Notes under the pieces: generated by a model
Database searches by the model: none
Told to the model about the DNA's origin: nothing
Seen by the model: only the letters and a program-made list of their open reading frames with translations
NCBI GenBank assembly: GCA_964019135.1
Contig: OZ025248.1
Span: 37,503,670-37,567,669, forward strand
DNA from: Arenicola marina
Taxonomy: Eukaryota; Annelida; Polychaeta; Arenicolidae
Direction: 5' to 3'
Length of the DNA stretch: 64,000 nucleotides
Shown: positions 515 through 64,000 of the stretch, piece by piece
Layout of the letters: each line of letters starts with the position of its first letter
Numbering within the stretch: position 1 is the stretch's first letter
Translations under genes and position numbers: made by a program

Positions 515-1763
515 TCGATACCATTGATTTTAAAGTTGCACGTCTTCATGCGAGCGCAAAGACGCTAAAAATTTAACGCCGAAGGCATTTCAATCAATAT
601 GCATTGGCGGCTTTACAATACGCAGGGCTGTTGCAGTCGCCCTTCTGCGGCTTTCCACTTCGGTCACTCCCGTTTTTTTTTGCGTCCCTTCCTCTCTTCT
701 GTCTTCAACATTTTTGCAATTATTATGAGTCCGAGGGAGGTAGACTCCCCTCAACATAAACCCTGACGGCCCTCTCTTCTTCCTCACTCGTCCATCATAC
801 TTTAATCTTTTTTCTAACCTTTTACAATTTTACGATGCATCGATTTGACCATTTCCATTTCCGGTTGGCACACTATATATCTAGCCATGTATTGATTTCC
901 TGAAGTTACTTTCTTAGGCACTCCGCCGCATCTTTGCAACTGGTATCCCACGATAGAATTGCATGATGTTAAGACAACATATACGCGGCGCTATATCTGT
1001 CTGCTGTGACATTATGTCTGCTCTGCCGCGTCTCTCAATCCCCTGTTTCGATCCTCGCTCGCCTATTTCTCTTATTAATAAGTTATTCGCTACAATTGTT
1101 CACAACCCGTCTTTCTGGTTCAGTTCGTGTATGTCTCGAGCGGTCTTTCTATTTAGTTCATGTTTTATCGGTCTACTTTTCTCACATGTTGTTTTTCTCT
1201 GGGGTCTATTTTCGTCTCTCCGTTCGTCTTTTAGGGCGTAGTTTCATCGCAATATCTTCCATGTAGCCCATCTTCTCCCACTCCGTCTTTCTTTGTTCGG
1301 TCCATCTTGGTCCCTCTTGGTCAGTCTGCACCCGTCAGTGTGTGTTATGTTCGCCTGCCCGCCTCCACAGGGTCTCACAATGACTAGACGGCTATCTGTG
1401 TATGTCACGGTTCTTTCTCTCAGACATGTCGGCCGCTCCTCGTTACCCTTATAGGAGCCCCTGCTATGCGGCCCTATTGTTCGCCTTCCCGCTGCCAAAT
1501 TGGCCTGTAGCCTACCCAGGTCGGCTTAAATAAAGAAAATAAAAATCCTGCGATAGCATCGACCTAAATTGACTTACGGGCGGTATTCCCTAATGACCTG
1601 CCTGTCTGTTCGAGACAGGGCAGAGAATGCGGGGCATGACGAGTGGAGGCTGTCATCTATGGTTGACCTACATTCTGTTCTCTTCAGGCGGCCGGGTCAG
1701 TCACGCAGAGTGGGTGGCGGCAAGGTTGTCAAAGGACGAAGATGTGGGGGCAAAGTCCGACAA
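515..1763. other. Intergenic DNA left of the large minisatellite
   Basis: No gene, RNA or mobile element could be supported. The region is pyrimidine-rich on the plus strand around 1000-1300 (many CTGTCT and TTTCTC words). It contains several open frames under 100 codons that overlap on both strands and resemble no known family. Confidence 0.4.
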
Positions 1764-4700
1764 GTCACATTGTGTCTCCGGTCACGGTGTGTCTCCAGTC
1801 ACGGTGTGTCTCCAGTCACGGTGTGTCTCCAGTCACGGTGTGTCTCCAGTCACGGTGATTCTCCAGTCACGGTGTGTCTCCAGTCACGGTGTGTCTCCAG
1901 TCACGGGTTTTTAGTTACGTGCTTTCAGTCACGGTGTGTTTCTAGTCACAATGTGTTTCCAGTCACGGTGTGGCTCTAGTCACGGTGTGTCTCCAGTCAC
2001 GGTATGTCTCCAGTCACGGAGTCTCCAATCACGATATGTCTCCGGTTACTGTGTGTCTCCAGTCACGGTGTGTCTCCAGTCACGGTGTGTCTCCAGTCAC
2101 GGTATGTCTCGAGTCACGGAGTCTCCAATCACGGTATGTCTCCAGTCACGGTGTGTCTCCAGTCATGGTGTGACTCTAGTCACGGTGTCCCCAGTCACGG
2201 TGTGTCTCCAGTCACGGTGTGTCCCTAGTCACGGTGTGTCTCCAATCATGGTGTGTCTCCAGTCACGGTGTGTCTCCAGTCACGGGTTTTTAGTTACGTG
2301 CTTTCAGTCACGGTGTGTCTCTAGTCACAATGTGTCTCCAGTCACGATGTGGCTCTAGTCACGGTGTGTCTCCAGTCACGGTATGTCTCCAGTCACGGAG
2401 TCTCCAATCACGGTATGTCTCCGGTCACGGTGTGTCTCCAGTCACGGTGTGTCTCCAGTCACGGTGTGTCTCCAGTCACGGGTTTTTAGTTACGTGCTTT
2501 CAGTCACGGTGTGTCTCTAGTCTCAATGTGTCTCCAGTCACGGTATGGCTCTAGTCACGGTGTGTCTCCAGTCACGGTATGTCTCCAGTCACGATGTGTC
2601 TCCAGTCACGGTGTCTCCCTAGTCACGGTGTGTTTCCAATCACGGTGTGTCTCCAGTCGCGGTGTGTCTCCAGTCATGGTGTGTCTCCAGTCACGGTGTG
2701 TCTCCAGTCACGGTGTGTCCCTAGTCACGGTGTGTCTCCAATCACGGTGTGTCTCCAGTCGTGGTGTGTCGCCAGTCATGGTGTGTCTCTAGTCACGGTG
2801 TGTCTCCAGTCACGGTGTGTCTCCAGTCACGGGTTTTTAGTTACGTGCTTTCAGTCAGGGTGTGTCTCTAGTCACAATGTGTCTCCAGTCACGGTATGGC
2901 TCTAGTCACGGTGTGTCTCCAGTCACGGTATGTCTCCAGTCACGGAGTCTCCAATCACGGTATGTCTCCAGTCACGGTGTGTCTCCAGTCATGGTGTGAC
3001 TCTAGTCACGGTGTCTCCAGTCACGGTGTGTCTCCAGTCACGGTGTGTCTCCAGTCACGGTGTGTCTCCAGTCATGGTGTGTCTCCAGTCACGGTGTGTC
3101 TCCAGTCACGGTGTGTCCCTAGTCACGGTGTGTCTCCAATCACGGTGTGTCTCCAGTCGTGGTGTGTCTCCAGTCATGGTGTGTCTCTAGTCACGGTGTG
3201 TCTCCAGTCACGGTGTGTCTCCAGTCACGGTGTGTCTCCAGTCATGGTGTGTCTCCAGTCACGGTGTGTCTCCAGTCACGGTGTGTCCCTAGTCACGGTG
3301 TGTCTCCAATCACGGTGTGTCTCCAGTCGTGGTGTGTCTCCAGTCATGGTGTGTCTCTAGTCACGGTGTGTCTCCAGTCACGGTGTGTCTCCAGTCACGG
3401 GTTTTTAGTTACGTGCTTTCAGTCAGGGTGTGTCTCTAGTCACAATGTGTCTCCAGTCACGGTATGGCTCTAGTCACGGTGTGTCTCCAGTCACGGTATG
3501 TCTCCAGTCACGGAGTCTCCAATCACGGTATGTCTCCAGTCACGGCGTGTCTCCAGTCACGGTGTGTCTCCAGTCACGGTATGTCTCCAGTCACGGTGTG
3601 TCTCCAGTCACGGTGTGTCTCTAGTCACGGTGTGTCTCCAGTCACGGTGTGTCTTCAGTCACGGGTTTTTAGTTACGTGCTTTCAGTCACGGTGTGTCTC
3701 TAGTCACGGTGTGACTCCAGTCACGGTATGTCTCCAGTCACGGAGTCTCCAATCACGATATGTCTCCGGTTACTGTGTGCCTCCAGTCACGGTGTGTCTC
3801 CAGTCACGGTGTGTCTCCAGTCACGGTATGTCTCGAGTCACGGAGTCTCCAATCACGGTGTGTCTCCAGTCACGGTGTGTCTCCAGTCACGGTGTGTCCC
3901 TAGTCACGGTGTGTCTCCAATCACGGTGTGTCTCCAGTCGTGGTGTGTCTCCAGTCATGGTGTGTCTCTAGTCACGGTGTGTCTCCAGTCACGGTGTGTC
4001 TCCAGTCACGGGTTTTTAGTTACGTGCTTTCAGTCAGGGTGTGTCTCTAGTCACAATGTGTCTCCAGTCACGGTATGGCTCTAGTTACGGTGTCTCTCCA
4101 GTCACGGTATGTCTCCAGTCACGGAGTCTCCAATCACGGTATGTCTCCAGTCACGGTGTCTCCAGTCATGGTGTGTCTCCAGTCATGGTGTGTCTCCAAT
4201 CACGGTGTGTATCCAGTCACGGTGTGTCTCCAGTCATGGTGTGACTCTAGTCACGGTGTCTCCAGTCACGGTGTGTCTCCAGTCACGGTGTGTCCCTAGT
4301 CACGGTGTGTCTCCAATCATGGTGTGTCTCCAGTCACGGTGTGTCTCCAGTCACGGGTTTTTAGTTACGTGCTTTCAGTCACGGTGTATCTCTAGTCACA
4401 ATGTGTCTCCAGTCACGATGTGGCTCTAGTCACGGTGTGTCTCCAGTCACGGTATGTCTCCAGTCACGGAGTCTCCAATCACGGTATGTCTCCGGTCACG
4501 GTGTGTCTCCAGTCACGGTGTGTCTCCAGTCACGGTGTGTCTCCAGTCACGGTGTGTCTCCAGTCACGGTGTCTCCAGTCACGGTGTGTCTCCAGTCACG
4601 GTGTGTCTCCAGTCACGGTGTGTCTCCAATCACGGTGTGTCTGCAGTCATGGTGTGTCTCTAGTCACGGTGTGTCTCCAGTCACGGTGTGTCTCCAGTCA

Positions 4701-7700
4701 CGGTGTGTCTCCAGTCACGGGTTTGTAGTTACGTGCTTTCAGTCACGGTGTGTCTCCAGTCACGGTGTGTCTCCAGTCACGATGTTTCTCCAGTCACGGG
4801 TTTTTAGTTACGTGATTTCAGTCACGGTGTGTCTCTAGTCACAATGTGTCTCTAGTCACGGTATGGCTCTAGTCACGGTGTGTCTCCAGTCACGGTATGT
4901 CTCCAGTCACGGAGTCTCCAATCACGGTATGTCTCCAGTCACGGTGTGTCTCCAGTCATGGTGTGACTCTCGTCACGGTGTGTCTCCAGTCACAATGTGT
5001 CTCCAGTCACGGTATGGCTCTAGTCACGGTGTGTCTCCAGTCACGGTATGTCTCCAGTCACGGAGTCTCCAATCACGGTATGTCTCCAGTCACGGTGTGT
5101 CTCCAGTCATGGTGTGACTCTAGTCACGGTGTGTCTCCAGTCACAATGTGTCTCCAGTCACGGTATGGCTCTAGTCACGGTGTGTCTCCAGTCACGGTAT
5201 GTCTCCAGTCACGGAGTCTCCAATCACGGTATGTCTCCAGTCACGGTGTGTCTCCAATCATGGTGTGACTCTAGTCACGGTGTCTCCAGACACGGTGTGT
5301 CCCCAGTCACGGTGTGTCTCCAGTCACGGTGTGTCTCCAATCGTGGTGTGACTCTAGTCACGGTGTCTCCAGTCACGGTGTGTCTCCAGTCACGGTGTGT
5401 CTCCAGTCACGGTGTGTCTCCAATCACGGTGTGTCTCCAGTCATGGCGTGTCTCTAGTCACGGTGTGTCTCCAGTCACGGTGTGTCTCCAGTCACGGTTT
5501 TTAGTTACGTGATTTCAGTCACGGTGTGTCTCTAGTCACAATGTGTCTCCAGTCACGGTATGGCTCTAGTCACGGTGTATCTCCAGTCACGGTGTGTCTC
5601 CAATCATGGTGTGACTCTAGTCACGGTGTCTCCAGTCACGGTGTGTCCCCAGTCACGGTGTGTCTCCAGTCACGGAGTCTCCAATCACGGTATGTCTCCA
5701 GTCACGGCGTGTCTCCAGTCACGGTGTGTCTCCAGTCACGGTGTGTCCCTAGTCACGGTGTGTCTCCAATCACGGTGTGTCTCCAGTCAGGGTGTGTCTC
5801 TAGTCACGGTGTCTCCAGTCACGGTGTCTTCAGTCACGGTGTGTCTCTAGTCACGGTGTGTCTCCAGTCACGGTATGTCTCCAGTCACGGAGTCTCCAAT
5901 CACGGTATGTCTCCAGTCACGGTGTGTCTCCAGTCATGGTGTGACTCTCGTCACGGTGTGTCTCCAGTCACAATGTGTCTCCAGTCACGGTATGGCTCTA
6001 GTCACGGTGTGTCTCCAGTCACGGTATGTCTCCAGTCACGGAGTCTCCAATCACGGTATGTCTCCAGTCACGGTGTGTCTCCAGTCATGGTGTGACTCTA
6101 GTCACGGTGTGTCTCCAGTCACAATGTGTCTCCAGTCACGGTATGGCTCTAGTCACAATGTGTCTCCAGTCACGGTATGGCTCTAGTCACGGTGTGTCTC
6201 CAGTCACGGTATGTCTCCAGTCACGGAGTCTCCAATCACGGTATGTCTCCAGTCACGGTGTGTCTCCAGTCATGGTGTGACTCTAGTCACGGTGTGTCTC
6301 CAGTCACAATGTGTCTCCAGTCACGGTATGGCTCTAGTCACGGTGTGTCTCCAGTCACGGTATGTCTCCAGTCACGGAGTCTCCAATCACGGTATGTCTC
6401 CAGTCACGGTGTGTCTCCAATCATGGTGTGACTCTAGTCACGGTGTCTCCAGTCACGGTGTGTCCCCAGTCACGGTGTGTCTCCAGTCACGGTGTGTCTC
6501 CAATCATGGTGTGACTCTAGTCACGGTGTCTCCAGTCACGGTGTGTCTCCAGTCACGGTGTGTCTCCAGTCACGGTGTGTCTCCAATCACGGTGTGTCTC
6601 CAGTCATGGCGTGTCTCTAGTCACGGTGTGTCTCCAGTCACGGTGTGTCTCCAGTCACGGTTTTTAGTTACGTGATTTCAGTCACGGTGTGTCTCTAGTC
6701 ACAATGTGTCTCCAGTCACGGTATGGCTCTAGTCACGGTGTATCTCCAGTCACGGTGTGTCTCCAATCATGGTGTGACTCTAGTCACGGTGTCTCCAGTC
6801 ACGGTGTGTCCCCAGTCACGGTGTGTCTCCAGTCACGGAGTCTCCAATCACGGTATGTCTCCAGTCACGGCGTGTCTCCAGTCACGGTGTGTCTCCAGTC
6901 ACGGTGTGTCCCTAGTCACGGTGTGTCTCCAATCACGGTGTGTCTCCAGTCAGGGTGTGTCTCTAGTCACGGTGTCTCCAGTCACGGTGTCTTCAGTCAC
7001 GGTGTGTCTCTAGTCACGGTGTGTCTCCAGTCACGGTATGTCTCCAGTCACGGAGTCTCCAATCACGGTATGTCTCCAGTCACGGTGTGTCTCCAGTCAT
7101 GGTGTGACTCTCGTCACGGTGTGTCTCCAGTCACAATGTGTCTCCAGTCACGGTATGGCTCTAGTCACGGTGTGTCTCCAGTCACGGTATGTCTCCAGTC
7201 ACGGAGTCTCCAATCACGGTATGTCTCCAGTCACGGTGTGTCTCCAGTCATGGTGTGACTCTAGTCACGGTGTGTCTCCAGTCACAATGTGTCTCCAGTC
7301 ACGGTATGGCTCTAGTCACGGTGTGTCTCCAGTCACGGTATGTCTCCAGTCACGGAGTCTCCAATCACGGTATGTCTCCAGTCACGGTGTGTCTCCAATC
7401 ATGGTGTGACTCTAGTCACGGTGTCTCCAGTCACGGTGTGTCCCCAGTCACGGTGTGTCTCCAGTCACGGTGTGTCTCCAATCACGGTGTGTCTCCAATC
7501 ATGGCGTGTCTCTAGTCACGGTGTGTCTCCAGTCACGGTGTGTCTCCAGTCACGGTTTTTAGTTACGTGATTTCAGTCACGGTGTGTCTCTAGTCACAAT
7601 GTGTCTCCAGTCACGGTATGGCTCTAGTCACGGTGTATCTCCAGTCACGGTGTGTCTCCAATCATGGTGTGACTCTAGTCACGGTGTCTCCAGTCACGGT

Positions 7701-7946
7701 GTGTCCCCAGTCACGGTGTGTCTCCAGTCACGGAGTCTCCAATCACGGTATGTCTCCAGTCACGGCGTGTCTCCAGTCACGGTGTGTCTCCAGTCACGGT
7801 GTGTCCCTAGTCACGGTGTGTCTCCAATCACGGTGTGTCTCCAGTCAGGGTGTGTCTCTAGTCACGGTGTCTCCAGTCACGGTGTCTTCAGTCACGGTGT
7901 GTCTCTAGTCACGGTGTGTCTCCAGTCACAATGTGTCTCTAGTCCC
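1764..7946. repeat. Large minisatellite, 17-bp unit, about 360 copies
   Basis: The unit CCAGTCACGGTGTGTCT is repeated head to tail for about 6.2 kb. Common variants are CTAGTCACGG, CCAATCACGG, CCAGTCATGG and a short form CCAGTCACGGAGTCT. A marker variant containing GGTTTTTAGTTACGTG recurs about a dozen times (for example near 1904, 2284, 2480, 2830, 3400, 4010, 5497, 6660 and 7555), which shows the array grew by copying blocks rather than single units. Because 17 is 2 modulo 3 and the unit has few plus-strand stops, every forward frame translates to the same 17-residue peptide periodicity, so the apparent proteins here are artefacts. It begins after an ordinary sequence ending ACAAGTCACATTGTG and stops abruptly at an A-run near 7948. 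Confidence 0.97.
5526..7946. repeat. Higher-order repeat blocks inside the 17-bp array
   Basis: The 1163-bp block 5526-6688 is followed directly by a second copy starting at 6689. The first 570 bp read as identical. The second copy is 895 bp because it lacks about 268 bp, and a third partial copy begins at 7584 and runs to the array end. Nested inside is a 151-bp sub-block seen in tandem near 4897, 5048, 5875 and 6026. Near identity of the large blocks implies very recent amplification, or alternatively an assembly duplication of one block. Confidence 0.9.
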
Positions 7947-8140
7947 GGTAAAAAAAACGCGTATGACGATTGGTATGTTGTTTTGAGTGTACTGCTTCCA
8001 CTTGTACACCATTAACTTGTCAATGTTGCACGGTTGGATCAAGTCTGACTAAGATACATTATGATGCATTATTTCGTTATTATAATTGTTATCGCAACAT
8101 ATGTACACAGATGAAACAACCAGCTGGCCACTACATGTCA

Positions 8141-8162
8141 TGACGTCATTGCATTGACGTCA
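8141..8162. promoter_or_regulatory. Paired TGACGTCA palindromes
   Basis: Two full cAMP-response-element type palindromes (TGACGTCA) lie at 8141-8148 and 8155-8162 with 6 bp between them, in the 250-bp stretch between the 17-bp and 59-bp arrays. Such sites bind CREB/ATF bZIP dimers in animals. No gene start is recognisable nearby, so a regulatory role is only inferred. The word is common across this window and may be part of dispersed sequence. Confidence 0.3.
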
Positions 8163-8196
8163 CACCAGACGAGACGCACCAGCTTCTTCGGTCGGC

Positions 8197-8384
8197 GGGA
8201 ACCAGCCTGATCAATACATTCTGCTGATTACCCTTGGACCGGAATTGTAGCGACTGGGAACCAGACTGGTCAATACACTGTTCTGATTACCCTAGGACCA
8301 GAGTTGTAGCGACTGGGACCCAGCCTGGTCAATACATCGTGCTGATTACCGTTCGGCCAGTGTTGTAGCGAATGGGAACCAGCT
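8197..8384. repeat. 59-bp tandem repeat, about 3 copies
   Basis: Three successive units each begin GGGAACCAG and contain GTCAATACA and CTGATTACC before ending TTGTAGCGACT. A fourth partial unit ends at about 8384. The spacing between GGGAACCAG starts is 59 bp. Divergence between units is about 10-15% by eye. Confidence 0.85.
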
Positions 8385-8984
8385 AGCCCCATGTGACGTT
8401 GTTGGAAATTTTAAAAGCCACATGTCCGGTCCATCTAATCCTGCATGGCATTTCACAAGCACGCGTGGCGAGATGCGGTGCTGATGGCGAGAACTTTTTG
8501 GGGTATGGCAATAGTTTCTAAAAGTATGTAGCTTACAACTTATCTTGTTATTTTGGTTGAAGTCTCCGTGATTACGACGATATCGTCTGTTGATTTTTCG
8601 AAGCAGCAGACAACTCAGTTCTGTCCGCCACCTTGCCCACCCAGTGGAGAAACTGCGCATGCGTGCATGTCGTTAAAACCGCACCATTCGTTTGGTGGCG
8701 CTTCATACACCCGGCCATTGACCCGCAATAAGCGAAACGCCACCTGGCGAAAGCCGCTGGTGAAGAATGACCAAATACGAAATGGCGCGATAAACAACAA
8801 GAAAGTCTCATTTCAACCGACTTGATAGTAATGCGATACTTTGTTAGTTCATATGCATGTGGGTTTTGTGGTAAATATGAAGTTTAGGTATCAGAGTACA
8901 AAATGACAAGGGTTTGATGGATCGTGCGGTTAACAACACTTAGTCGCCCACAAAAACAAATCTTACACCCTCATTTCTCATTTT
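8385..8984. other. Intergenic DNA, nothing firm
   Basis: Overlapping open frames of 60-104 codons exist on both strands between 8346 and 8825, but none resembles a known protein and they contradict each other. No repeat structure is visible. The sequence leads into a SINE-like element on the minus strand. Confidence 0.35.
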
Positions 8985-9200
8985 CTACATGAGGACATGA
9001 GACTGTTGTGCGGAGCAACAACTGTCTCATATTGGACTAGGAAGCAGCCAACTAGTCAGTCTCAGCACACTATATTCTTCCATTATGGCCGCTCACCGGC
9101 CTGATGGTGTCACACCAAATATGGATTCGTTGGTGTTTAGAGCCCTGTCTCTGAATCTGAGTCTCTAAAGTCCAGCGTGCTACCAGTGAGCTACCGATGT
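8985..9200 (-). mobile_element. tRNA-like SINE (minus strand), probable
   Basis: Read on the minus strand, 9177-9193 gives TAGCTCACTGGTAGCAC, a good match to the internal A box of a tRNA promoter. It is followed by a tRNA-like anticodon-arm stretch (GCTGGACTTTAGA). The B box is weak. The body contains a strong hairpin (8997-9030) with a 13-14 bp stem of TGAGACTGTTGT and AACAACTGTCTCA around a 7-bp loop. I could not find a clear 3' tail or target-site duplication, so the limits are approximate. Confidence 0.45.
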
Positions 9201-9207
9201 GACGTCA

Positions 9208-10686
9208 CAACCATTCGCCGCCGTCAAATGTTAACACATAACGCGAACCCCCAAAAATGAAATCCAAGGTTGGCTACATCGAGCAGGTTATCCGATCGTC
9301 GGTGATACTGGTTCAGGGACCACTGGGAGTTTCATACAGCAAAACGCGCAGCTTCGCCAACGCGAGGGGTAGAGTGGCTGTGTTGGGGGTGGGGGTGGGG
9401 GTGCGTCCTTCCCTGGCGGCTGCTCGCGGGCAACGTGAACTTTTAATGCGGAACTGAAGTGGCTGAGTCGGCGAGGATATGAGATACGTGAGCGGGTGGG
9501 AGTAGGTGGGGAGCGGGGGCCTGTGGGGGTGGGGGGTGGGGGGGGCGGAGGATGGATGGGCACCGGACCCCATTGTTGTAAGGAGTTTATAGCGGAAGTG
9601 CCATAGTGCGCTGGCTGGCTAGGTCGGGACTAGTAGAGGGCAGCCGCCTATCGCAGCCACGGCACCGGGACGTCTCCGCGTGCGTACAACCCACGCACTG
9701 CACCACCCAGCCAGCAAGCCAGCCAGCTAGCCAGCCCGCCCGCCAGCCAGCCAAGACGATCCAAAATGGAGGGGTAGAGCCGGAGAACTGAAGCCAGAGC
9801 CCCCTGCCGGACCTCCCGGATATCACTACAAGCCAGCCAGCTAGCCTGCCCCAGCCGCTGGCCCGCCCGCCCCAGCCAGTGAGCGGCGGGCGGGGGCCTG
9901 TCGCCCCGAGGTTGCGGCGTATGCAGGTTTCCCGCGCTTGCGAAGCGGCGGCAGACGACAGGAGCGGTCCGTAGCTATCGGACGTACAGTGAGGGAAAGC
10001 GAGGACTGGTGGCTGGGCTTCTTCCGGGGCGCCGTCCGCCTCACTGACGCACTGCATACTTAGTCTGCCTCCGTAGACCGCGGTGTTAGCGTGGGTGTTC
10101 GCCGTGGATTACTCACTCACACACCATCGTCGCTTGTCGGGCACAAGTCTGTCGATAGCCGACTTTAAGTTACTGTTCGTTCAATACCCACACAACGTTT
10201 CTATAGATAAAGTGGAGTACACACACTCAAGCGGGGGAGTATGTCAAATTAATCGGCCTGTGGATCAGCTTCTATCGTGTTGACTTCTTCATATAAACGA
10301 CTTCGCCGTCATGAGATGTTTGAGTGCGATTTAACCACGTGACGACAACTGGCTCTGGCTGCTTCCTGTTTATTGCCGGTGTGGTGTCAAAGCCGTATCA
10401 ACAACAACAACAAAGCTGGATATATATTCTGTGTGCTGCTGTCGGTGTGTTTATGGAATAGCCTTGGATTATTTTCACGCTTCCCTTTAATGCTGAGTGG
10501 AGTAGTAACGGGAGTTGATGTCATTCAGCCGTGCACGATACTCCTTACTTAGTCTTTACTCGTCACCCGACGCCCGTTGATTAATTGTTTTAACAAAGGG
10601 AATGTGTCTGCGGATGGCAATTCATTTATTGACTGTTTGCTTGGCCGTAGATTAAGTGAGGTTTTTGTGGTGATACATCAGCTGCG
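9208..10686 (+). promoter_or_regulatory. GC-rich region upstream of the globin gene
   Basis: From about 9350 to 10080 the sequence is GC- and CpG-rich, consistent with a promoter or first non-coding exon of the globin that starts at 10687. It also contains a G-rich stretch (9380-9410 and 9530-9550), a CCAG tetranucleotide repeat, an E-box CACGTGAC at 10336-10343 and an AT stretch GGATATATATTC near 10418. A TATACATCAG-like acceptor just before the ATG would be compatible with an upstream non-coding exon, but no transcription start can be fixed from sequence alone. The short open frames in this stretch look like low-complexity shadows. Confidence 0.4.
9707..9754. repeat. CCAG/CCAGCC short tandem repeat
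   Basis: About a dozen irregular copies of the tetranucleotide CCAG, with AGCC and CCCG variants, lie in the GC-rich region upstream of the globin gene. A second small cluster of the same word occurs at about 9831-9845. Confidence 0.8.
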
Positions 10687-11814
10687 ATGGGTGGAAGCCT
10701 TTCTCTGCGGGACCGGGGTTGCTCCTGGAGGGGTAAGCACTGTTCTCCCCACCGCGGCAAGGGGTACTCCTCCTTGACTATCGACCTGACGGAGCGCGAG
10801 AAGGAGCTGGTGCGAACCACATGGGAGCCCCTCTCCCAATGCCGGATCGAGAAGGCCGTCGAGATCTTCTTGCGGATCTTCGAGCTCGCTCCGGAGACAA
10901 AGGATCTGTTTCCCTTCCGGAACGCCGTCGGGGAAGCCCTGATCAGGCACCCGATGTTTAAAAGCCACGCCACGCGGTTCATCAACGCGGTCCACTCCAC
11001 CGTCATCAACCTGAACGCCTGGGAGGTGATCCTGATCCCGACGCTGATCCAGCTGGGCCGGACGCACACCAAGATTCCGGGATTCAAGCTGGAGCATCTG
11101 GATATCTTCATCCGCGCTATCCTGGACGTGTGGGCGCGCAGTCTGGGCCGGCAATGGACGTCCGAGACCAGGACGGCCTGGAAGAAGATCTTCTGCCTGA
11201 TCGCCGGCAAGGTGGAGTACGGATACAATCAGGAGCTGCGGGATAAGGCGCGTAGGGATTCGCTGGCCGAGCGTGCCTCGCGGGCCGAGACGGTCGCGGT
11301 CAGCCCGGCGAAGGGAGGCGGGCAGGGGGGCGGGGGCGCCGCGACCGACGTTAAGTGCCCCGTCACCGCCACCGTCGCCAAGTGCCCCGTCACCGCCACC
11401 GTCGCCAAGTGCCCCGTCACCGCCACCGTCGCCAAGTGCCCCGTCACCGCCACCGTCGCCAAGTGCCCCGTCACCGCCACCGCCGCCACGGTCCCCGCCA
11501 CCGACCCGGCAGCCCCTGAGGGGCTATGCCCGGCTCCTGAGACCAATGGAGGTCCCACGGCCAAAGCACGAAACGCTGTAGACGGCAGGGATCAGCCGCA
11601 GCCGCAGCCGCAGCCGCAGCCGCAGCCGCAGCCGCCAGAGCCGCCGCACACCAGCGCCGTCGGTAACGGCCTTGGCAACGGCATCGGCAACGGCAACGTG
11701 AACAGCAACGGCGCCTTGCTTGGCAACAGTGCTTGCGTCGGACTTTCATCGGAGTCGCCCCCTGGCGGCAGGGGCGGCGGCCCAGGGTTGGCGCAGGCGA
11801 CGACAGCGACGTAG
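10687..11814 (+). CDS. Globin of neuroglobin/globin-X type, long C-terminal tail
   Basis: The 375-residue product holds a complete globin fold at about residues 34-181. It aligns without a gap to human neuroglobin from helix A to CD: Trp46 (A12), Phe61 (B10) and Phe75 (CD1). The distal His94 (E7) lies in FKSHATRF and the proximal haem-binding His127 (F8) in LGRTHTKI. Such globins bind haem and oxygen or other small ligands; the physiological role is unknown here. The protein starts MGGSLS, a plausible N-myristoylation signal, with Cys12 and Cys19 nearby as possible palmitoylation sites, as known for membrane-bound globin X. Residues 182-375 are a low-complexity tail with five KCPVTATVA repeats (223-267), a PQ run (303-316) and a GN-rich part. 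The ATG has a good context (GCGATGG). No intron interrupts the globin fold, although most animal globins have introns there. A donor-like GGGTAAGC at 10731-10738 is the main caveat for the N-terminus. Confidence 0.88.
   Translation: MGGSLSLRDRGCSWRGKHCSPHRGKGYSSLTIDLTEREKELVRTTWEPLSQCRIEKAVEIFLRIFELAPETKDLFPFRNAVGEALIRHPMFKSHATRFINAVHSTVINLNAWEVILIPTLIQLGRTHTKIPGFKLEHLDIFIRAILDVWARSLGRQWTSETRTAWKKIFCLIAGKVEYGYNQELRDKARRDSLAERASRAETVAVSPAKGGGQGGGGAATDVKCPVTATVAKCPVTATVAKCPVTATVAKCPVTATVAKCPVTATAATVPATDPAAPEGLCPAPETNGGPTAKARNAVDGRDQPQPQPQPQPQPQPPEPPHTSAVGNGLGNGIGNGNVNSNGALLGNSACVGLSSESPPGGRGGGPGLAQATTAT
11353..11487 (+). repeat. 27-bp coding minisatellite in the globin tail
   Basis: Five nearly identical 27-bp units (each starting AAGTGCCCCGTCACCGCCAC) encode five copies of KCPVTATVA. 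Because 27 is a multiple of three, copy-number change would lengthen or shorten the protein without breaking its frame. Each unit supplies one cysteine. The last unit ends in Ala-Ala instead of Val-Ala. Confidence 0.93.
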
Positions 11815-12895
11815 GGCGGCCAACACGTAAACGACGTTGCTCCGTGAAGCAAGCCGCCGGCCGGCTCCCCCGCCCACATCTTTCGCGTTCCTCGAAGGGG
11901 CACGTCTACAGCCAGGTTAGGGTCAAGGAGGGTCGTGCGTGGGGGTGGAGGAGGAGGTGAAGCGCTGTTTACTTCTTATCTCACACGTGTCGCTGTGCTG
12001 AGTGGTGCTACAGAGAGACAACCAAACACTTTCTGCCCAAAATCAATACGAACAGCGACGAAACCGACTCCACCCTGCCACCCCCATCTATTTGGGAGAG
12101 GCGAGAATGCGGGATGTCTGGGGTGGTGTTCGTACCACCCCTCCTCCTCCACCGCTCGGGGCGCCTGGCATGGTCACTTGCCCACCACTTGGACGAGACG
12201 AGAGGCGCGGCCCATGGTGGGGGTAGGCGGTGCGGTGGGGGGGGGATGTCGAGACAGTGATTGAGGCGTCAGACAACATAGGAACCGGCTCATATAAGTG
12301 TCCCCCTGTCACCTCGTACTTACCCTTCCCCTGCCTCCAGACTGCGTCCTTTTATTCTTCCCGCCGGGTAATTTGCCGAGACTTAAGACGCCCGGCAGCT
12401 CTTCAACAATGCTGCTCGTCACCCTACCGCCCGCCCCCCCCCCCCCCCCAATCTCTTCTCCTCCCTCTAAACACCCCCAACCCTGCCCTACCCACCCCTG
12501 ACACTGGCAAATTTCCCTCCGAGAAATAGTGCCTTATAAGAATTCTGTCTACATTGGCCCCCACCGTCAAACCCTCCACCTCCATCCACCTCCTCCACCC
12601 CTGTTCATCATCCAAATCCATTCGCTTTCCTCTCCTACCCCTTTGTACCTCCCTCCCTCCCTCCCCCATCACGCTCCATTACATTATCCCATCCCGCTAG
12701 ACCTACCCCCCCCCCCCCCATTCTCAGCCACCCCTCCCACCCCTCTCAGTCGCATACCCTCGGTTGGCTGATCACCCCAAATACACGTCCCAAGGGTGCC
12801 ATCTTTCCAATTCAGCTGACCCTCTCCCGACCCCGATCGATGGCCGGGATTCAATTGGGGCGCCATCTGGGGCCGAGCGGTTGGCCAGAGTCGAT
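11815..12895. other. Downstream of globin: 3' flank and C-rich DNA
   Basis: No canonical AATAAA was seen close after the globin stop, so the 3' UTR end is undetermined. From 12420 to 12760 the plus strand is C-rich with poly-C runs (about 12427-12449 and near 12707) and CTCC/CACC low complexity, which generates proline-rich open frames I do not consider genes. 12780-12895 is ordinary sequence. Confidence 0.5.
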
Positions 12896-13116
12896 AACTC
12901 CCGGCGAGGGCTATCGCAAGTGTCTGTGAGGGGAGGGCTATCGCAAATGTCTGTGAGGGGGGGAGGGGCGGGGGTTATCACAAGTCTTGGTGGACCTTTT
13001 ATCGCTATCACACTCTCTGCTCTGTAGGGGCGGGGGAGGGGGAGGGGGATAGCACAAGTTGTGGCGAACCTTTTATCGCCATCGCAGTCTCTGCTCTGTG
13101 GGGAAGGAGGGTAGGG
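12896..13116. repeat. Short duplications bordering the 29-bp array
   Basis: A roughly 20-bp unit GAGGGCTATCGCAA occurs twice at 12905-12960. A longer unit of about 80 bp containing CCTTTTATCGC and CTCTCTGCTCTGT occurs twice (about 12970-13030 and 13050-13105). These share the words TATCAC, CTTGG and GGACC with the adjacent 29-bp array and may represent its ancestral, less amplified edge. Confidence 0.6.
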
Positions 13117-13846
13117 TATTACAAGCCGTGTCTTGGCGGACCGTTTATCACAAGCTGTGTCTTGGCGGACCAGTTATCACAAGCCGTGCCTTGGCGGACT
13201 GGTTATCACAAGCCGTGTCTTGGGGGACCGGCTATCACAAGCCGTGTCTTGGCGGACCGGTTATCACAAGTCGTGTCTTGGCTGACAGGTTATCCCAAGC
13301 CGTGTCTTGGCGGACTGGTTATCACAAGCTGTGTCTTGGGGGACCGGTTATCACAAGCCGTGTCTTGGCGGACCGATTATTACAAGCCGTTTCTTGGCGG
13401 ACCGGTTATCACAAGCCGTGTCTTGGCGGACCGGTTATCACAAGCCATGTCTTGTCCGACCGGTTATCACAAGCCGTGTCTTTGCGGACCGGTTATCACA
13501 AGCCATGTCTTGGCGGACCGGTTATCACAAGCCGTGTCTTGGCGGACCGGTTATCACAAGCCGTGTCTTGGTGGACCGGTTATCACACGCCGTTTCTTGG
13601 CGGACCGGTTATCACAAACCGTGTCTTGGCGGACCGGTTATCACAAGCCGTGTCTTGGCGGACCGGTTATCACAAGCCGTGTCTTGGGGGACCGGTTATC
13701 ACAAGCTGTGTCTTGGCGGACCGGTTATCACAAGCCGTGTCTTGGCGGACCGGTTATCACACGCCGTTTCTTGGCGGACCGGTTATCACAAGCCGTGTCA
13801 TGGCGGACTGGCTATCACAAGTCGTATCTTAAGGGACCCTTTATCA
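13117..13846. repeat. 29-bp minisatellite, about 25 copies
   Basis: A 29-bp unit built around GGCGGACCGGTTATCACAAG and followed by CCGTGTCTT is repeated head to tail about 25 times with a few percent variation (CCATG, GGGGG and CACGC variants). The unit length is 2 modulo 3, so all three plus frames stay open and translate to a 29-residue period; the 200-257 codon frames seen here are artefacts. The array decays on the right into AAGGGACCCTTTATCAC. Confidence 0.96.
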
Positions 13847-16194
13847 CCACCACATGTACTTCGGCGCCAACATTCCCGCAGAATTAACGTCATTTCGTTT
13901 TGGGTTGTAAAGTGCAAGAAAAACTGACAGAGAAATGAACAGAGAGGACTTAAAGAAGCCCTGTGACGGAATTACTTTAGAGAAAGTCGAATTGGGCGTC
14001 CAGGGACTGTGCCAATAACGTACGCGGGCGGGAGGGGGGGGGGGGGAGGGCAGAGGACACCCTCCACTTGAAGGGTCGCTGCTGGTGCCTCGTGCTTTTT
14101 TTCCGCTAGAACCCCAAATCGCCGGGCAACTATGACGTGCAGTCCGGGCTAAGTGCACCGTCACAGGATGATCCATGGCCCCATGTCCGCTCCGGTCCTT
14201 CCCCTGGACCGGCCAGGAAGGAGCCCTCGTTTTAGACACATGGTTCATAACTCTCATCCCGGCGACCGTATTAAAAAAATTGCAGTCAGTACCTCCTGAA
14301 TATGACGTCATCATGGCGGATGAAATGTATGGTTACCCATGCCCCCCTTTTTCCCCATTTGAAAACGTTTTGCTTGTCATTCCTGAACCCAGTTATGTTA
14401 TAAATATTGTTGCAGTCATCCTAATGACGTTCTCAGCCATGTGATCGTTTTTATTCATGGACCAACAAAAGGGGATGTTATATCCAGTGTATCTCAACCA
14501 CAATCCACAAGAGGCTATCACCATCAGGTTGTCTCAACCGAAATTCAAAAAGGAACCGTCATCTGCTTCAATATATATCAACCTAAATATACACGACTCG
14601 CCGTCATGTTATCGACCAACAAAAAGTTACGAGGCCGCCATCTTTATACTCTATATTAATATGGGGCGGCCATCTTTAGTTTTTCCCGGCGCATTAAGTC
14701 GCATTACGATTGGCATGGCTTCCAATAATGGCGGCCACCGCTGCCATTCGCCCAGGTCGAAATCAGCCAATGGCTTCTTTTTCGACCGGATTATTATATA
14801 TATTTATGTTGCTCTTTGTTATCAGTACGACCGCTCCATCCGTCAAGGAAACTGTGGGTCGGGATTAGAGTCGCTGTCCCCCCGCCCCCCCCCCCCATAC
14901 CGCCCACAACCACCCCCCACCCCTCACCCCACCCCCCAATCCGCGGGCGTTCGCATAGCCTAAGTAATTGCCCGCACTACGGCAACAGATAACTGACCGC
15001 AAAAGCAGCAGTCTTGGCGGATGGCTTTTAAGATGACTCCTGTAATGAGGGAGCCGCGTTGGCTGTTAGGGACTGAGAAAATGGCGATTTCTATAGACGC
15101 CCCCTTTGATGGGAGAGGTGATGGGGACGGGCATAGGGAGGGGGGCGCGGTCGGTCTGCAGTAGGTTACTTGGACGGGAACAGCGGAATTGTCATTTCAG
15201 AGCGAGATATGGGGGTCGGCTGGGAAAGAAAAGAGAGAGATGAGTATCAGTCTATGACACAGTCCAGACGAATCCCCCCCCCCTCTCCACCCACCACCTC
15301 TGAGACTTGTGGTGGAAGACGATTGATTGGGGTAATTGTAACGGAAATGTATCCGTAAGTACCGCCAACACATTGGATGATCGGTGTCAGTGTCGGTGAC
15401 GGCTGTCGCCGAACTGGATACGTAACACAAACATCAAACTTTATATTTAAGGAAATATAACCCTCTTGTATTGTTTAAGCCTTAGCCGTATGGCCTTCCG
15501 GTGACTTATTCTGCTGTGGATGGTCAGTAATAATGAGACCCATCTGCACCCCCGTTTATTCAGTTGGGTTTTACAGTCGCCATGACCCTTCCCGACATGG
15601 TCTCCCACCCACCCTCACCCCTCACCCCTGCCCACCCGTCGCCCAATTTCATTTTGTCTGGCGGGCACTCATCAAATGTCTCTACCCCATTCCATACAAG
15701 TTGAGCTAGTCGCTGCTCATCGGTTCCCATGGAAGCGAGAGACAGAGCGGGCCCTTGCTCCCCAGCCCTCCCCCCCTCCCCTCCCCCACCAACCAATCAC
15801 CCTTCTTCGTTCCACATTCTCCTCTCCTTCATCTCCGAGCATTCATTCAAATTGTATACCCGCCTTACCCCCCCCCCCCCCCCCCACACCGCCCACTCTA
15901 TTACACCCCTCTCACCTCTCCCTTTTGCCCGCATTGCCATCAATATACTGAAGACGATTGGATTCGGCTTGTGGCCGGAGACACCGAATGTTGAGGCGCC
16001 ACTCCCGATTGGCAGTCCCGTTATGACATAATAGCGGCCCCCGGAATACGGCGCCCACTTCGGGACCTCACTCACTCCCCCCTCCCCCCCCCCTCCCTGC
16101 TACAAGTCTGTAATGACACCCATTGCGGGCGGATTACACTGATCGACACTTCCCATAACGCACCGCTGGATAAACCTGGAGAGACAACGTGCGT
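13847..16194. other. Intergenic DNA with poly-C/G tracts
   Basis: No gene recognised. A G-run lies at about 14030-14047 and C-rich stretches at 14879-14940, 15276-15290, 15600-15640 and 15767-15890, giving spurious proline-rich frames. Two YY1-like words (GCCGCCATCTTTA near 14633 and GCGGCCATCTTTAG near 14665) stand 30 bp apart. A full TGACGTCA is at 14303-14310. I see nothing downstream of them that looks like a first exon. Confidence 0.4.
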
Positions 16195-16243
16195 GTCACG
16201 TGACCGCACCACGTGACCTTGTCTTATGTCTTACGTGACGTCA
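16195..16243. promoter_or_regulatory. Cluster of CACGTGAC and TGACGTCA motifs
   Basis: Within 49 bp lie the 10-bp palindrome GTCACGTGAC (16195-16204), a second CACGTGAC (16210-16217) and ACGTGACGTCA (16233-16243). GTCACGTGAC matches the CLEAR element bound by TFEB/MITF-type bHLH-ZIP factors, and TGACGTCA is the CREB/ATF consensus. The dense, evenly spaced arrangement suggests a proximal promoter or enhancer. No coding exon is recognisable on either side, and a further TGACGTCA lies at 16471-16478. Confidence 0.4.
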
Positions 16244-18700
16244 TTGCGACGCGGACAAATCAAAGCAAAGTTAGATACTATGCAATGTGAAATGAAGGAC
16301 AGATGTATAGTCTAAAAGGTATATAAATATCTATATAATGATATAATCTTAATATATTGGATCTCACTACTGTACAATACTTCATTATCAAACATATATA
16401 TGTATCCATGTGTGTGACCTTTGACCCGACGAGATTAGAGTGATCTGTACGCTGGAAATTCGTATAAGTGTGACGTCATGGCCTTCGCCAGTGAGATGGG
16501 TGGGATGGTCAAGGGATCACCAAAAGTCCTTATACTGGTTCACCTGGCTTAGGTATGCGTCATTCTCCAATTACACACCAATTGACAGCCCTTAGTTAAT
16601 TTACCCCATGGATATTCCGCACCAACTGACCGAATTGTTATGCATTCAGCATGAATCGAAAATAAAAGATTATTTACATCAATATATCCAGACTACCATT
16701 ATCCAGTGAACAATAGATGCGACACCGTGTGTCTGGCTTTGTTGAAAAACAAGACATAAACAAACTTTGTGCGTGACATTTCACTCAATTTGAAGGCACA
16801 CGTTGTATCTATGTGTTATACAGATTAGTGGTGCCCGTGTCAAGACACGTCAAGTTTGAATGCGTGATGGAAGGGTCATTTGGTGCAAACGATGTAGGAA
16901 ATCTCAGCGTTATCTGAATATTAATGTATCCCAGAATGCATTGCGCCGCGGCCTTATTCGCAGCTGAGTGCAGAGTGCAAGCACAATATGTATTCATTGG
17001 ATGATGAATATATATATAAATATATATATATATACATATACATGGGTATACATTTAGATGATGGATATACTCCTAGCTTTATATGAAATGGACAACACGG
17101 GTGTTCGTTTCTAATAGATCTAATAGTTTTCGGCGAAGAAATAAATAGCAAACGCTGTGTTTTAAAGCAACCCATATTTTCTGGACATAGTTTTAGTTTT
17201 CGTGGGAAGTTATTTTCTTGTTATGGCATCAAGAACCGATTGATGTAGATACTGGTGTTATTATGTAATCAACTCTACTTTAACTCGACAAGAAAGTGAA
17301 TGAGGCCTAAGTGCTTCGATTCATCAGACTTAACCGTATCATCCCGACATCATCGTTATTAACATTATCATTATCATGACACCACCAGCACTAGGATTAA
17401 CATCATTATCATGACACGACCAACAAGGATTAACATTATCATCACCATTTTCATGATTAACATACACACAGATTTATTAACACAAATTTAGTTTGTTTAC
17501 GTTTTGATGCGAACGCGTTTATAAACCACTGACAGAATAGCGGGAACTGAATACTGGCTTAATTATCAAGCTTTCATCAGCGTTAATATTCTGTCGGCTG
17601 AGCTTAAGTGTGGTGATCGGAATTGTTTAGATGTACTCTGTTTTGAGCCTGTCGTATCCGTTGAAAAGCCGAAACGACTATCATATCAGTTGAATTCGCT
17701 TCGTCCAGAAATAAATAGTTATTTGAAAGATTTCGATCGAGTCTGAATATGTTGAAGATGGCGTCATATAAGGCGGATGCATGGATACAATCTCATGAGA
17801 GAAAATCACAATCACAATATAACTTCTTGTGCATACATCACGAAAATTAGTGTTGCTGGGCAATACAAATTATTTATTACATTAATTTTCCATCATTACT
17901 GGCAATAGGGCATGTTCATGTTCAACTTATTATTCAAGGTACGCGCATGTGCGTCTATAAAACATGTCACCGTCTGTACCCTTTGACCTAGCAGTATATA
18001 CCCCTATTGTCAACTTCATTGATACGGAAAATTATTTCCTAAAATATGAAAATTGCAATTCAATTCAAGCCCAGTTTTTCTTTAAAATGAAATTATTATG
18101 AGCAATCGGACCACGTTAAAGCACCAAGCTCTCCAGACGAGATGTTCTCAGAACGTCCTATACTAGAGGTAGTTTGTGAGTCAATTACATACCATACACT
18201 CCTATACTATACCTTCCCCTTCACGGAAATTATACTCGATAACCGAATTGTTTAATATCCCGTCTGTACATGACTTGCTACATTATTTACATATCGATTA
18301 TGGCGATGGATGTCATCTATTTTATGTAGTATAAACTATGTGCAAACGCGAATAATACGTGATTAATCTACCCGCAGTTTATATTGATGTATGCAGTTAT
18401 CTAATATAACTAACTGTGAGGGCGAACATAGTGCGAACACATTAGTGCGTGCTACGCTATTTTGGCAGTTTTAAGGATCTCCAAATATATGTTAATACAT
18501 ACATGCGCTGGTGAGTATAACACATGTAATGGGAGCTGAGGAAGATCCACATGCGGGCGACAGAGGTAATAAAACTGATGTCGCCTGCAGCGAATCTACA
18601 TGATTGCGTAGGACCCAGTTGGAAAGGAAAGGTTCATTCAAGTGTGGAATACGTAAACGGTTCACTGTTTTCTTCCCACTGGGTGAGACGTCATTAACCC
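16244..18700. other. AT-rich single-copy DNA, no gene seen
   Basis: The composition shifts sharply to AT-rich. Microsatellites TA/TATATA occur at about 16995-17045, and three loose copies of ATTAACATTATCAT occur around 17350-17455. Open frames are short and lack domains. Confidence 0.45.
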
Positions 18701-43966: not shown

Positions 43967-45535
43967 TCACGAGGTTGGCGAGCCACAGAGCTCCATAAAT
44001 TCCTCCCAGTGCTTAGTCATTATGTCAGCCCAGCCTAAGAATTGCTCGATTTTGATTTCGTCCACATATCTGTATTTCTCCACGAAATAGTGACCCAGGA
44101 TTTGTCTCCTTTGGGTCATGCGAAGTGTGTCATTTAGATGACGTCTTGCTAGTCGTGATCGCGCAACCTTCTCTTGCCGTGACGTCATCACGTCATTAGC
44201 TATGACGTCATTGGGAAGCACGCGCCAAGCGATCTCCCCATCTATCACGTGATCGAACAACTGGCCGTCAGAAAGCCACGGTCGCAGCCCCCCAGTGACG
44301 TCATTGTCAGGATCGTCGCCATTAGTGAGGTAACACATCGGGGGCTCATCAGGCACAGGAAGGGTAAAGTCGAAAGGCCGCCATTTTGTGATCCAGGGTC
44401 TTAGCGTCCTGGGCTTGACGCTCAGCGGGAATGGGATATGGTCGGGATCTCCGGGAGAGGGCGTTCGTGTCCTGCCACAGGTGAAGCTACATCTCGTCAG
44501 GACACCCAGGAAGTCCTTGTGCCCTCGCCTACTCGTGGACGCCTTCACATCCCGGATCAGCATGGCGACCGCCGTGGCGTCCTGAACACCGGCCTTGACC
44601 TTGCAATCGTGGTCTTGCCAGCCGTCGGTTCTCATGCGACCCACGACCAAGTCTGGCGCGGCGAGCTTGGGTTCTACTCCTTGCAGGGACAGACCCAGCC
44701 AGGGTAAGTAGTGAAAGACCAACGGGTACAGCCGCCTCCGCTCGAAACTCTCCTTGTGAGCTCTCCTCATTGCACTTGAGGTGATGATTTGCTGAACATC
44801 CGACTCCAAGATGCGATACACGTGCGAAGCGTCGTACACTAATCCTTTGAACGGGGCCCAGAAATCGAAATCTGAATCTCGCGGCTCGCTGTTATGGGCC
44901 ATAATCTCTTTTCGAGAGAGCAGAGGTAGGTCGTTGAGCTCCGTGCCGCTGCCGCCCGTGTCCCATTGCACTAAGCCATACCCGGCCGCCGGCTCCACAT
45001 CAAGGTCATCATCCACGGGCTCCTCGTCCTCTGCATCCGTTGCAACGCCGTTGGCTTCATACACCAGGGCGTCTAGCTGTCGGATGGCGTCGTGCTCGTC
45101 TTGTCGGGGCGGCGGGCTGGCGGAAAGCGCCCGGCACAGGCGGTCCGGCAGATCCTCTGAGGTCAGGGAGTCCGGGCTGCCCACCAGGATGTGTCCCGAC
45201 GGCAAAATTATCCCGATGGGCGGCGGGGAAGACGGCGACGCATCCCCATCCTCCTCCCTGTCTCCCTCTCCTTCACCCTCACCCCGTAGCCTCTCCCTCT
45301 CCCTCTCCCGGCAGCTCACAGGGGCGTCCAGGGCCCCGCTGTGATGATTGCGACCTTCAGCCCCCAATCCGCGTCTACGGTCGCCGGACGCGTTGTCCGG
45401 GTGGTCCGGGACGACATACTGCAGGGCGCGCTGGTCGGGGGTGAAGTGGTTGTCTGGCGCCTGCCCGTGGCGATGTCGCCTTGGCTTCCTGTCGTCCAGG
45501 ACGATCGAGGCGTTGGTACTACAGCCACACCCCAT
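43967..45535 (-). CDS. Uncharacterised 522-residue protein with MGCGCS N-terminus
   Basis: This long uninterrupted frame begins at an ATG in good context (GCGGGATGG). The product begins MGCGCSTN, a strong candidate for N-myristoylation at Gly2 with palmitoylation at Cys3/Cys5, so membrane attachment is inferred. Residues 1-200 look disordered: a basic stretch (15-23), an RE/GE-rich run (75-95), a Ser/Pro run (99-106) and an acidic run (167-182). Residues 205-522 look folded, with hydrophobic/aromatic segments (DFWAPFKGLVYDASHVYRIL, 224-243; PLVFHYLPWLGLSL, 271-284) and a charged, probably helical C-terminus (450-515). There are no membrane spans and no family I recognise. A splice-acceptor-like TTTCAG|A 42 bp upstream of the ATG (45578) suggests a 5' UTR intron. 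The stop overlaps a donor-like CTCGTGAGT, but a nearby AATAAA supports termination here. Three TGACGTCA words lie in the coding sequence. Confidence 0.8.
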   Translation of the reverse strand: MGCGCSTNASIVLDDRKPRRHRHGQAPDNHFTPDQRALQYVVPDHPDNASGDRRRGLGAEGRNHHSGALDAPVSCRERERERLRGEGEGEGDREEDGDASPSSPPPIGIILPSGHILVGSPDSLTSEDLPDRLCRALSASPPPRQDEHDAIRQLDALVYEANGVATDAEDEEPVDDDLDVEPAAGYGLVQWDTGGSGTELNDLPLLSRKEIMAHNSEPRDSDFDFWAPFKGLVYDASHVYRILESDVQQIITSSAMRRAHKESFERRRLYPLVFHYLPWLGLSLQGVEPKLAAPDLVVGRMRTDGWQDHDCKVKAGVQDATAVAMLIRDVKASTSRRGHKDFLGVLTRCSFTCGRTRTPSPGDPDHIPFPLSVKPRTLRPWITKWRPFDFTLPVPDEPPMCYLTNGDDPDNDVTGGLRPWLSDGQLFDHVIDGEIAWRVLPNDVIANDVMTSRQEKVARSRLARRHLNDTLRMTQRRQILGHYFVEKYRYVDEIKIEQFLGWADIMTKHWEEFMELCGSPTS

Positions 45536-45709
45536 CCCGCGGTCTCCTCTCACCGCACTCAGCCCCACCGTGTCGGTCTGAAACACGAAAACATCAACAC
45601 CGTCATAAACACCGAAAACATACTGATCACGACAAACATCGACCTTTTTTTACGTTCTTTACGTAGAAGTCCGTCCCGAAGCTAAATGCGAAAAAATGTA
45701 TGACTCGTA

Positions 45710-53818: not shown

Positions 53819-54018
53819 NNNNNNNNNNNNNNNNNNNNNNNNNNNNNNNNNNNNNNNNNNNNNNNNNNNNNNNNNNNNNNNNNNNNNNNNNNNNNNNNNN
53901 NNNNNNNNNNNNNNNNNNNNNNNNNNNNNNNNNNNNNNNNNNNNNNNNNNNNNNNNNNNNNNNNNNNNNNNNNNNNNNNNNNNNNNNNNNNNNNNNNNNN
54001 NNNNNNNNNNNNNNNNNN
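53819..54018. other. Assembly gap, 200 N
   Basis: Exactly 200 unknown bases. It abuts the minisatellite on its right, so the true gap length and array length are probably unknown. Any frame spanning it is meaningless. Confidence 0.99.
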
Positions 54019-63490: not shown

Positions 63491-64000
63491 AAACTGTCTA
63501 AGTAAGCGTAATACTCCAATCATAAGTAACACTATGGCTGGTTGGCTTCTGTTACCTATTGCATTGTATTGTACACAATTATGTAACTGATTTTTGTTGT
63601 ATTAAATTGCTTAATTGGCGAAAGGGTGGACTTTTTATATGGTAGGCTAATTCATATAATAATAGGGAACTTGCAAATATGGAGACGGAGAGAGGAGACT
63701 AGACGGCCTCAAGCATACATTTATTAATGAATCAACAGTAAGACGCCCAGACAATGTGTCCAGCCAATTTCTGTGTTGATATAATCGAATATGTAGCGCT
63801 CTGACGTCATAATGATAGGCTTCATATTAAAAAATTAATGCTTCAGCTGACTATCTATATATATAGTAGGCTTAGTATATACGGTGGCGCCTCTGCCGGG
63901 GACTGCGCCCACCAGACGACCACGTGACAGCCATTCGCCTGAGGGAGATTGTTACGGCTTTCCCTGAGAATTGGCGGGAAGATCGTATCACCGAAACCAT
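63491..64000. other. Intergenic DNA at window end
   Basis: Ordinary AT-rich sequence with a TGACGTCA at 63802-63809, a short TATATATA run at 63855-63865 and CACGTGAC at about 63923. No gene recognised. Confidence 0.4.

Follow-up and report, generated by a model that had tools for sequence, protein, structure and literature searches.

The locus and its surroundings

We analysed a window of 64,000 nucleotides of the Arenicola marina genome (contig OZ025248.1), in which the frame at positions 10687 to 11814 of the forward strand is a real nuclear gene with a complete globin fold. The features of this locus, in window positions, are the following.

10687-11814, + strand: coding frame, from ATG at 10687 to TAG at 11812-11814, 375 residues
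10687-10779, + strand: N-terminal extension, residues 1-31 (MGGSLSLRDRGCSWRGKHCSPHRGKGYSSLT), a putative N-myristoylation start and then a basic stretch
10780-11229, + strand: globin domain, residues 32-181, uninterrupted (Pfam PF00042 and alignments with solved globins)
10909-10911, + strand: Phe75, CD1 (alignment with neuroglobin 5eu2, residue checked)
10966-10968, + strand: His94, distal haem histidine, E7 (same alignment, residue checked)
11065-11067, + strand: His127, proximal haem histidine, F8 (same alignment, residue checked)
11230-11811, + strand: low-complexity tail, residues 182-375, 194 residues (from composition; no splice donor scoring above 2.5)
11339-11503, + strand: 27-bp minisatellite of the tail; its CPVTATVAK-type units begin at residue 224
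11593-11648, + strand: CAGCCG array, Gln-Pro repeats (tandem-array listing)
11660-11712, + strand: GGCAAC-type arrays, Gly-Asn repeats (tandem-array listing)
11812-11814, + strand: stop codon TAG (frame reading)

Upstream of the globin gene there is a GC-rich stretch (9501-10000, 0.68 G+C) with CCAG-type repeats at 9703-9753, possibly a promoter region, and further upstream a 17-bp tandem array of ca. 373 copies extends over 6.2 kb (1763-7949), one of 40 merged arrays outside the tail. Downstream, a 29-bp minisatellite of ca. 25 copies (13117-13830) lies inside three forward frames of 206 to 257 residues, its period not being a multiple of three. The CpG observed/expected ratio of the window was 0.83, which speaks against a typical vertebrate, and 200 undetermined bases at 53819-54018 probably represent an assembly gap. 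No tRNA was detected in the window with the bacterial-code setting, and no Rfam family reached its gathering score there.

A second long frame, on the reverse strand at 43970-45649, has 560 residues from stop to stop, or 522 from an inner start, MGCGCSTNAS, that also resembles an N-terminal acylation motif. It had no match in Pfam (E 0.1), NCBIfam (E 1) or PDB (E 1), and its end (43970) carries a GTGAGT with a poor full donor score (1.5). A broken reverse transcriptase, presumably of the non-LTR type, was found on the reverse strand at 62077-63497; it comprises an RVT_1 match above the cut-off (62869-63369, E 2.3e-8), a second one below it (63213-63497, E 8.2e-5) and a weak C2H2 match, also below the cut-off (62077-62295, E 0.018).

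A complete globin domain in one frame

Within the window, 248 frames of at least 60 residues passed a complexity and tandem-array filter, and 110 of them were searched in Pfam (10 at E 0.1 and 100 at E 0.01, globin frame included), 138 being left out. Of those 110, two exceeded the curated cut-off, namely the globin frame and a reverse transcriptase frame, and a few weak matches stayed below it. The Globin family (PF00042) matched residues 59-174 with an E value of 2.3e-17 and a score of 64 bits (cut-off, 22), and was the sole family found in the protein; NCBIfam, a prokaryotic library, gave no match for this frame. With a profile score above the curated cut-off and the E7 and F8 residues present, the protein belongs to the globin superfamily.

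Searching solved structures with the full protein gave 85 distinct sequences matching at E 0.01 or better, and the matches with solved globins (the best 60 of the 85) jointly covered residues 32-181. With the first 182 residues as the query, 34 sequences matched at 1e-9 or better. The top scores were those of 1hlm (55.9 bits), leghaemoglobin 1gdi (55.1 bits) and 1hlb (54.1 bits), and further scores included non-symbiotic haemoglobin 3zhw (53.9 bits) and neuroglobin 5eu2 (51.8 bits); 1hlm and 1hlb, both labelled haemoglobin, we take to be echinoderm proteins. At this threshold neuroglobins ranged from 44.5 to 51.8 bits and plant globins from 42.1 to 55.1 bits; plant globins score as high as neuroglobin against this part of the protein. 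Such similar scores across distant globin families point to a conservative globin core and do not indicate any single clade.

Homology thus settles that the globin domain is real, and the Pfam match together with the alignments bears out the initial annotation, which had read the whole fold in one frame. The G+C content by codon position in the globin part (0.54/0.39/0.87) is a strong coding pattern, and by codon usage its reading frame scored as the top of all six. A stop-free run of at least 384 codons arose in 2 of 1,000 order-2 Markov copies of positions 9500-12500. Among 40 order-3 copies of the window with its arrays masked there was no such run, the longest having 328 codons; the 560 codons of the frame at 43970-45649 were likewise reached in 0 of the 40 (maximum, 328).

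Two foreign sources were considered as well. A viral collection contained 10 stretches fitting a search pattern and a collection of prokaryote genomes 204, none of which in either case was confirmed as a relative of the globin domain, in scans that used one protein as the query and reach close relatives only; a viral and a bacterial origin were rejected.

Haem site

Phe75, His94 and His127 align with neuroglobin 5eu2 at what we take to be positions CD1, E7 and F8, the helix numbering being read off that alignment, and both haem histidines had been numbered correctly in the initial annotation. Since the E7/F8 histidine pair is present, we infer a hexacoordinate haem, whose iron is predicted to be held on either side by His94 and His127 in the manner of neuroglobin and globin X. 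A haem of this kind would take part in signalling or in redox or ROS/NO chemistry at a membrane, not in oxygen transport. Along these lines, the roles proposed for globin X in PMC3176823 are membrane lipid protection and redox sensing or signalling. GLB-26 of Caenorhabditis elegans is comparable in being N-myristoylated and hexacoordinate (both predicted for the present protein), and a redox function at membranes has been proposed for it; it differs in being a nematode gene, for which, as far as PMC3520999 was consulted, no comparable tail is described.

Absence of introns and origin of the gene

The globin domain had been described as lacking introns, and the continuous frame confirms it, as do alignments without large insertions: across five solved-globin alignments the gaps were of one to three residues only, which indicates a fold without any intron-sized insertion. 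Of the donor-like sites in the frame, the highest-scoring one is at 10733, upstream of the globin domain; its score of 3.9 is within the top 0.9% of GT dinucleotides in the window. Globin X genes have four introns in fish and amphibians (B12.2, E10.2, G7.0 and H10.0, as described in PMC3206486) and typically three in arthropods, whereas the gene described here has none; positions B12.2, E10.2 and G7.0 are uninterrupted in both the frame and the alignments. The account in PMC7457136 has arthropod globin X and globin X-like genes keeping their introns with few losses, and B12.2 and G7.0 present in almost all arthropod globin X-like genes, which sets these apart from the intronless gene here.

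There are precedents for an intronless globin. The Chironomus HbL copies are described as mostly intronless or with a single intron (PMC7457136), and they are alike in being animal genes; they differ, by description, in being variants of midge HbL. In the cryptomonad Guillardia theta, 9 of 13 globin genes are reported to be without introns, and some 3/3 globins of Archaeplastida are also intronless (PMC4101818). The same source describes one G. theta globin with a predicted myristoylation site, in a gene that has introns, and E7 residues that are mostly hydrophobic in this species, E7 being His here. Judged from the DNA alone, a protist or alga as the host, in which an intronless globin would be nothing unusual, is unlikely: besides the His at E7, the non-LTR-type reverse transcriptase remnants and the low number of recognisable genes in the window look like those of an animal. 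Given these cases, an intronless globin as such is not new, but an animal globin that is both intronless and provided with an acylation motif would be unusual against the published descriptions, as far as these sources go.

The introns would have been lost at some point, perhaps when the gene's own mRNA was reverse-transcribed, which may have happened at the original locus or have given rise to an old retrocopy. The initial annotation had suggested an unusual lineage or a retrogene. In its full form, the latter would be a processed copy, inserted here, of a globin gene with introns, which captured a promoter and whose frame was extended into repeat DNA, now the tail, a history that is compatible with our preferred reading (they are not mutually exclusive). 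It agrees with the intronless domain, with a tail made up of simple arrays of the sort present throughout the window, and with the reverse transcriptase fragments within 62869-63497. The intronless part of the suggestion stood, but not the hallmarks of retroposition: no poly(A) tract was found, 8501-18000 being free of A or T runs of at least 9, and none of the 10 families of direct repeats of at least 14 nt in 8000-16500 brackets the frame, a length for which short or decayed target-site duplications are below reach. Neither was a second globin or a parent gene found within the 64-kb window by tblastn. The poly(A) tract and the direct repeats both decay, so that their absence is weak counter-evidence, and we consider a retrogene a possible, if somewhat doubtful, origin.

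N-terminus and probable membrane tethering

The MGGSLS start fits the PROSITE-type N-myristoylation pattern in the form used here (a pattern match). The pattern follows 21 of the 1,731 Met codons in the six frames of the window, and a stricter version with Ser or Thr at position 6 follows 8, the Met of MGGSLS being counted in both. These frequencies put MGGSLS above chance but short of proof. Residues 1-31 carry a net charge of +5 and include Cys12 and Cys19, and over these 31 codons the frame was the best among the forward frames, though not among all six, when scored with codon frequencies taken from the neighbouring frame. An in-frame TGA at 10657-10659, separated from the ATG by nine codons, places the start at 10687 except in the case of an exon boundary somewhere in 10660-10686. 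The ATG has the context GCGATGG, which we judge favourable for initiation.

Myristate tethering is a plausible property of this protein and a common one among animal globins. The initiator Met would be removed and Gly2 then myristoylated; myristate and the basic stretch would hold the globin on the inner face of the membrane, and palmitate on Cys12 or Cys19 perhaps adds to this hold. In our reading, the basic stretch with the two cysteines may be a second membrane signal; a myristoylation site plus a basic motif has been suggested as a means of membrane attachment (PMC7771090). Vertebrate globin X is described as acylated at Gly2 and Cys3, and in zebrafish both residues matter, the C3S mutant being without any membrane association (PMC3176823). 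Residue 3 is Gly here, and the Cys3 that is palmitoylated in vertebrate globin X is absent. A lipidation signal "as in globin X" had been claimed for this N-terminus; the myristoylation pattern holds, but Cys3 is missing and kinship with globin X is unsupported.

The N-terminus could also be without lipid, MGGSLS being either a chance match or internal to a protein whose true start is in an upstream exon. The eight Met codons that satisfy the stricter pattern and the missing Cys3 favour this, and an acceptor-like AG precedes the ATG, which would open an exon at 10682; yet this site is weak (score 0.5, top 12.8% of AG), the ATG context argues against an upstream start, and acylation is common in globins of the acylated kind. 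A myristoylation site is predicted in 8 of 15 amphioxus globins (PMC3087553), and acylated globins are not rare among animals according to PMC7457136, PMC3087553 and PMC7771090. We rate an unlipidated N-terminus as rather unlikely, and keep the myristoylated one as the preferred reading.

A repeat-built C-terminal tail

The low-complexity tail, put at ca. 190 residues in the initial annotation, measured 194. The residues A, G, P, S, T, Q and N make up 67.5% of it versus 32.0% of the globin domain, and F, W, Y, I, L and M only 4.6% versus 32.7%; going only by this composition, the tail would be disordered. The minisatellite encodes five units of the CPVTATVAK type. Units one to four have the same DNA sequence and unit five reads CPVTATAAT, and four identical units with a drifted fifth suggest that it expanded recently. 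All three merged arrays of the tail have periods divisible by three, versus 12 of the 40 arrays elsewhere in the window (arrays were merged by hand from 64 listed rows), for which the chance is about 0.03 if the arrays are independent. Tandem duplication of short units, each a multiple of three in length, may have enlarged the tail into a disordered appendage.

Translation of the tail is probable, because there is no strong splice donor between the globin part and the stop codon: none scored above 2.5 between 10734 and 11915 with a home-made matrix. G+C by codon position was 0.70/0.65/0.84 in the tail, and the 486 bases downstream of the stop gave 0.60/0.65/0.56. The coding signal of the tail is weak: its frame was the best of the three forward frames in all five blocks, although the best of six in only two. 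Codon-usage scores were negative for every tail block, and over the whole tail the score per codon (-0.149) was no better than that of the best frame of the 486-base 3' flank (-0.142); the reference for this test was the neighbouring frame, whose coding status is itself unproven. Markov copies of the tail were free of stops in 13% of 5,000 draws.

These weak figures leave room for a globin that is real and a tail that is not translated as read, through a spliced transcript or a frame-shifting assembly error, to which repeats are prone. For one C. elegans globin, the annotated C-terminal part is described as 3' UTR (PMC2228317). Against this, our matrix gives no donor above 2.5 in 10734-11915, the best donor-like site of the frame, at 10733, precedes the globin domain, and 3 of 3 merged arrays keep the frame. 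On balance we think it improbable that the tail is untranslated, and we continue with the translated one.

Among the open-access papers listed, no title or opening of an abstract mentions a globin that carries a long tail of repeats. Extensions as such are known: for C. elegans globins PMC2228317 gives C-terminal ones of up to 120 residues and N-terminal ones of up to 372, and PMC3087553 gives amphioxus globins of up to 236 residues, in whose genes minisatellite-like duplications occur across exon-intron borders. Globin X is described as having ca. 200 residues in fish and an average of 228 in arthropods, and arthropod globin X-like proteins an average of 199 (PMC7457136), compared with 375 here.

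Comparison with acylated globins

With globin X (clade III of bilaterian globins) the protein shares the globin fold, the CD1 Phe, the E7 and F8 His, an N-terminal extension with a Gly2 acylation motif, and extensions at both ends; it differs, by description, in having Gly3 where vertebrate globin X has Cys3. Fish globin X is also described as having Cys in helices C and G that form a disulphide (PMC3176823). The domain here has only Cys52 and Cys170, which by reading of the alignments are in the A/B and H regions, and the helix C/G pair is absent. With globin X-like proteins (clade II) it shares the single globin domain and an N-terminal acylation motif, but these have both acylation motifs, the vast majority in arthropods being predicted to be both myristoylated and palmitoylated (PMC7457136), and it lacks their Cys3. 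The gill globin of Carcinus maenas (HbL), again compared by description, is alike in having a myristoylation site without a palmitoylation site and is membrane-bound, and it is described as unrelated to globin X (PMC3176823).

Interpretation

The reading that we prefer, with a probability of roughly 0.55, is a single-exon, membrane-held, two-histidine intracellular globin of the putative acylated kind, carrying a repeat-built tail. By the acylated kind we mean globin X, globin X-like and their relatives, to which the protein is assigned putatively. A bolder version would make it a new globin architecture: a haem sensor encoded by one exon and tethered by myristate, with a coding-minisatellite tail in which a Cys recurs every nine residues (224, 233, 242, 251 and 260). 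Such a tail would act as a thiol or palmitoylation array of variable length, tuning membrane redox signalling and differing between individuals; this version we regard as very improbable.

The intronless and repeat-tailed globin of A. marina varies a known protein family in an unusual way. An ancient state of animal globins has been proposed to be the membrane-bound, acylated one (PMC7457136 and PMC7771090), and the function of such globins is unsettled. As arthropod globin X and globin X-like genes are described as largely keeping their introns, the complete loss of introns, combined with a tail that exceeds the fold in length, would amount to a natural experiment that tells which parts of a globin gene matter and, if true, would also provide a case of a coding minisatellite that operates within a haem protein.
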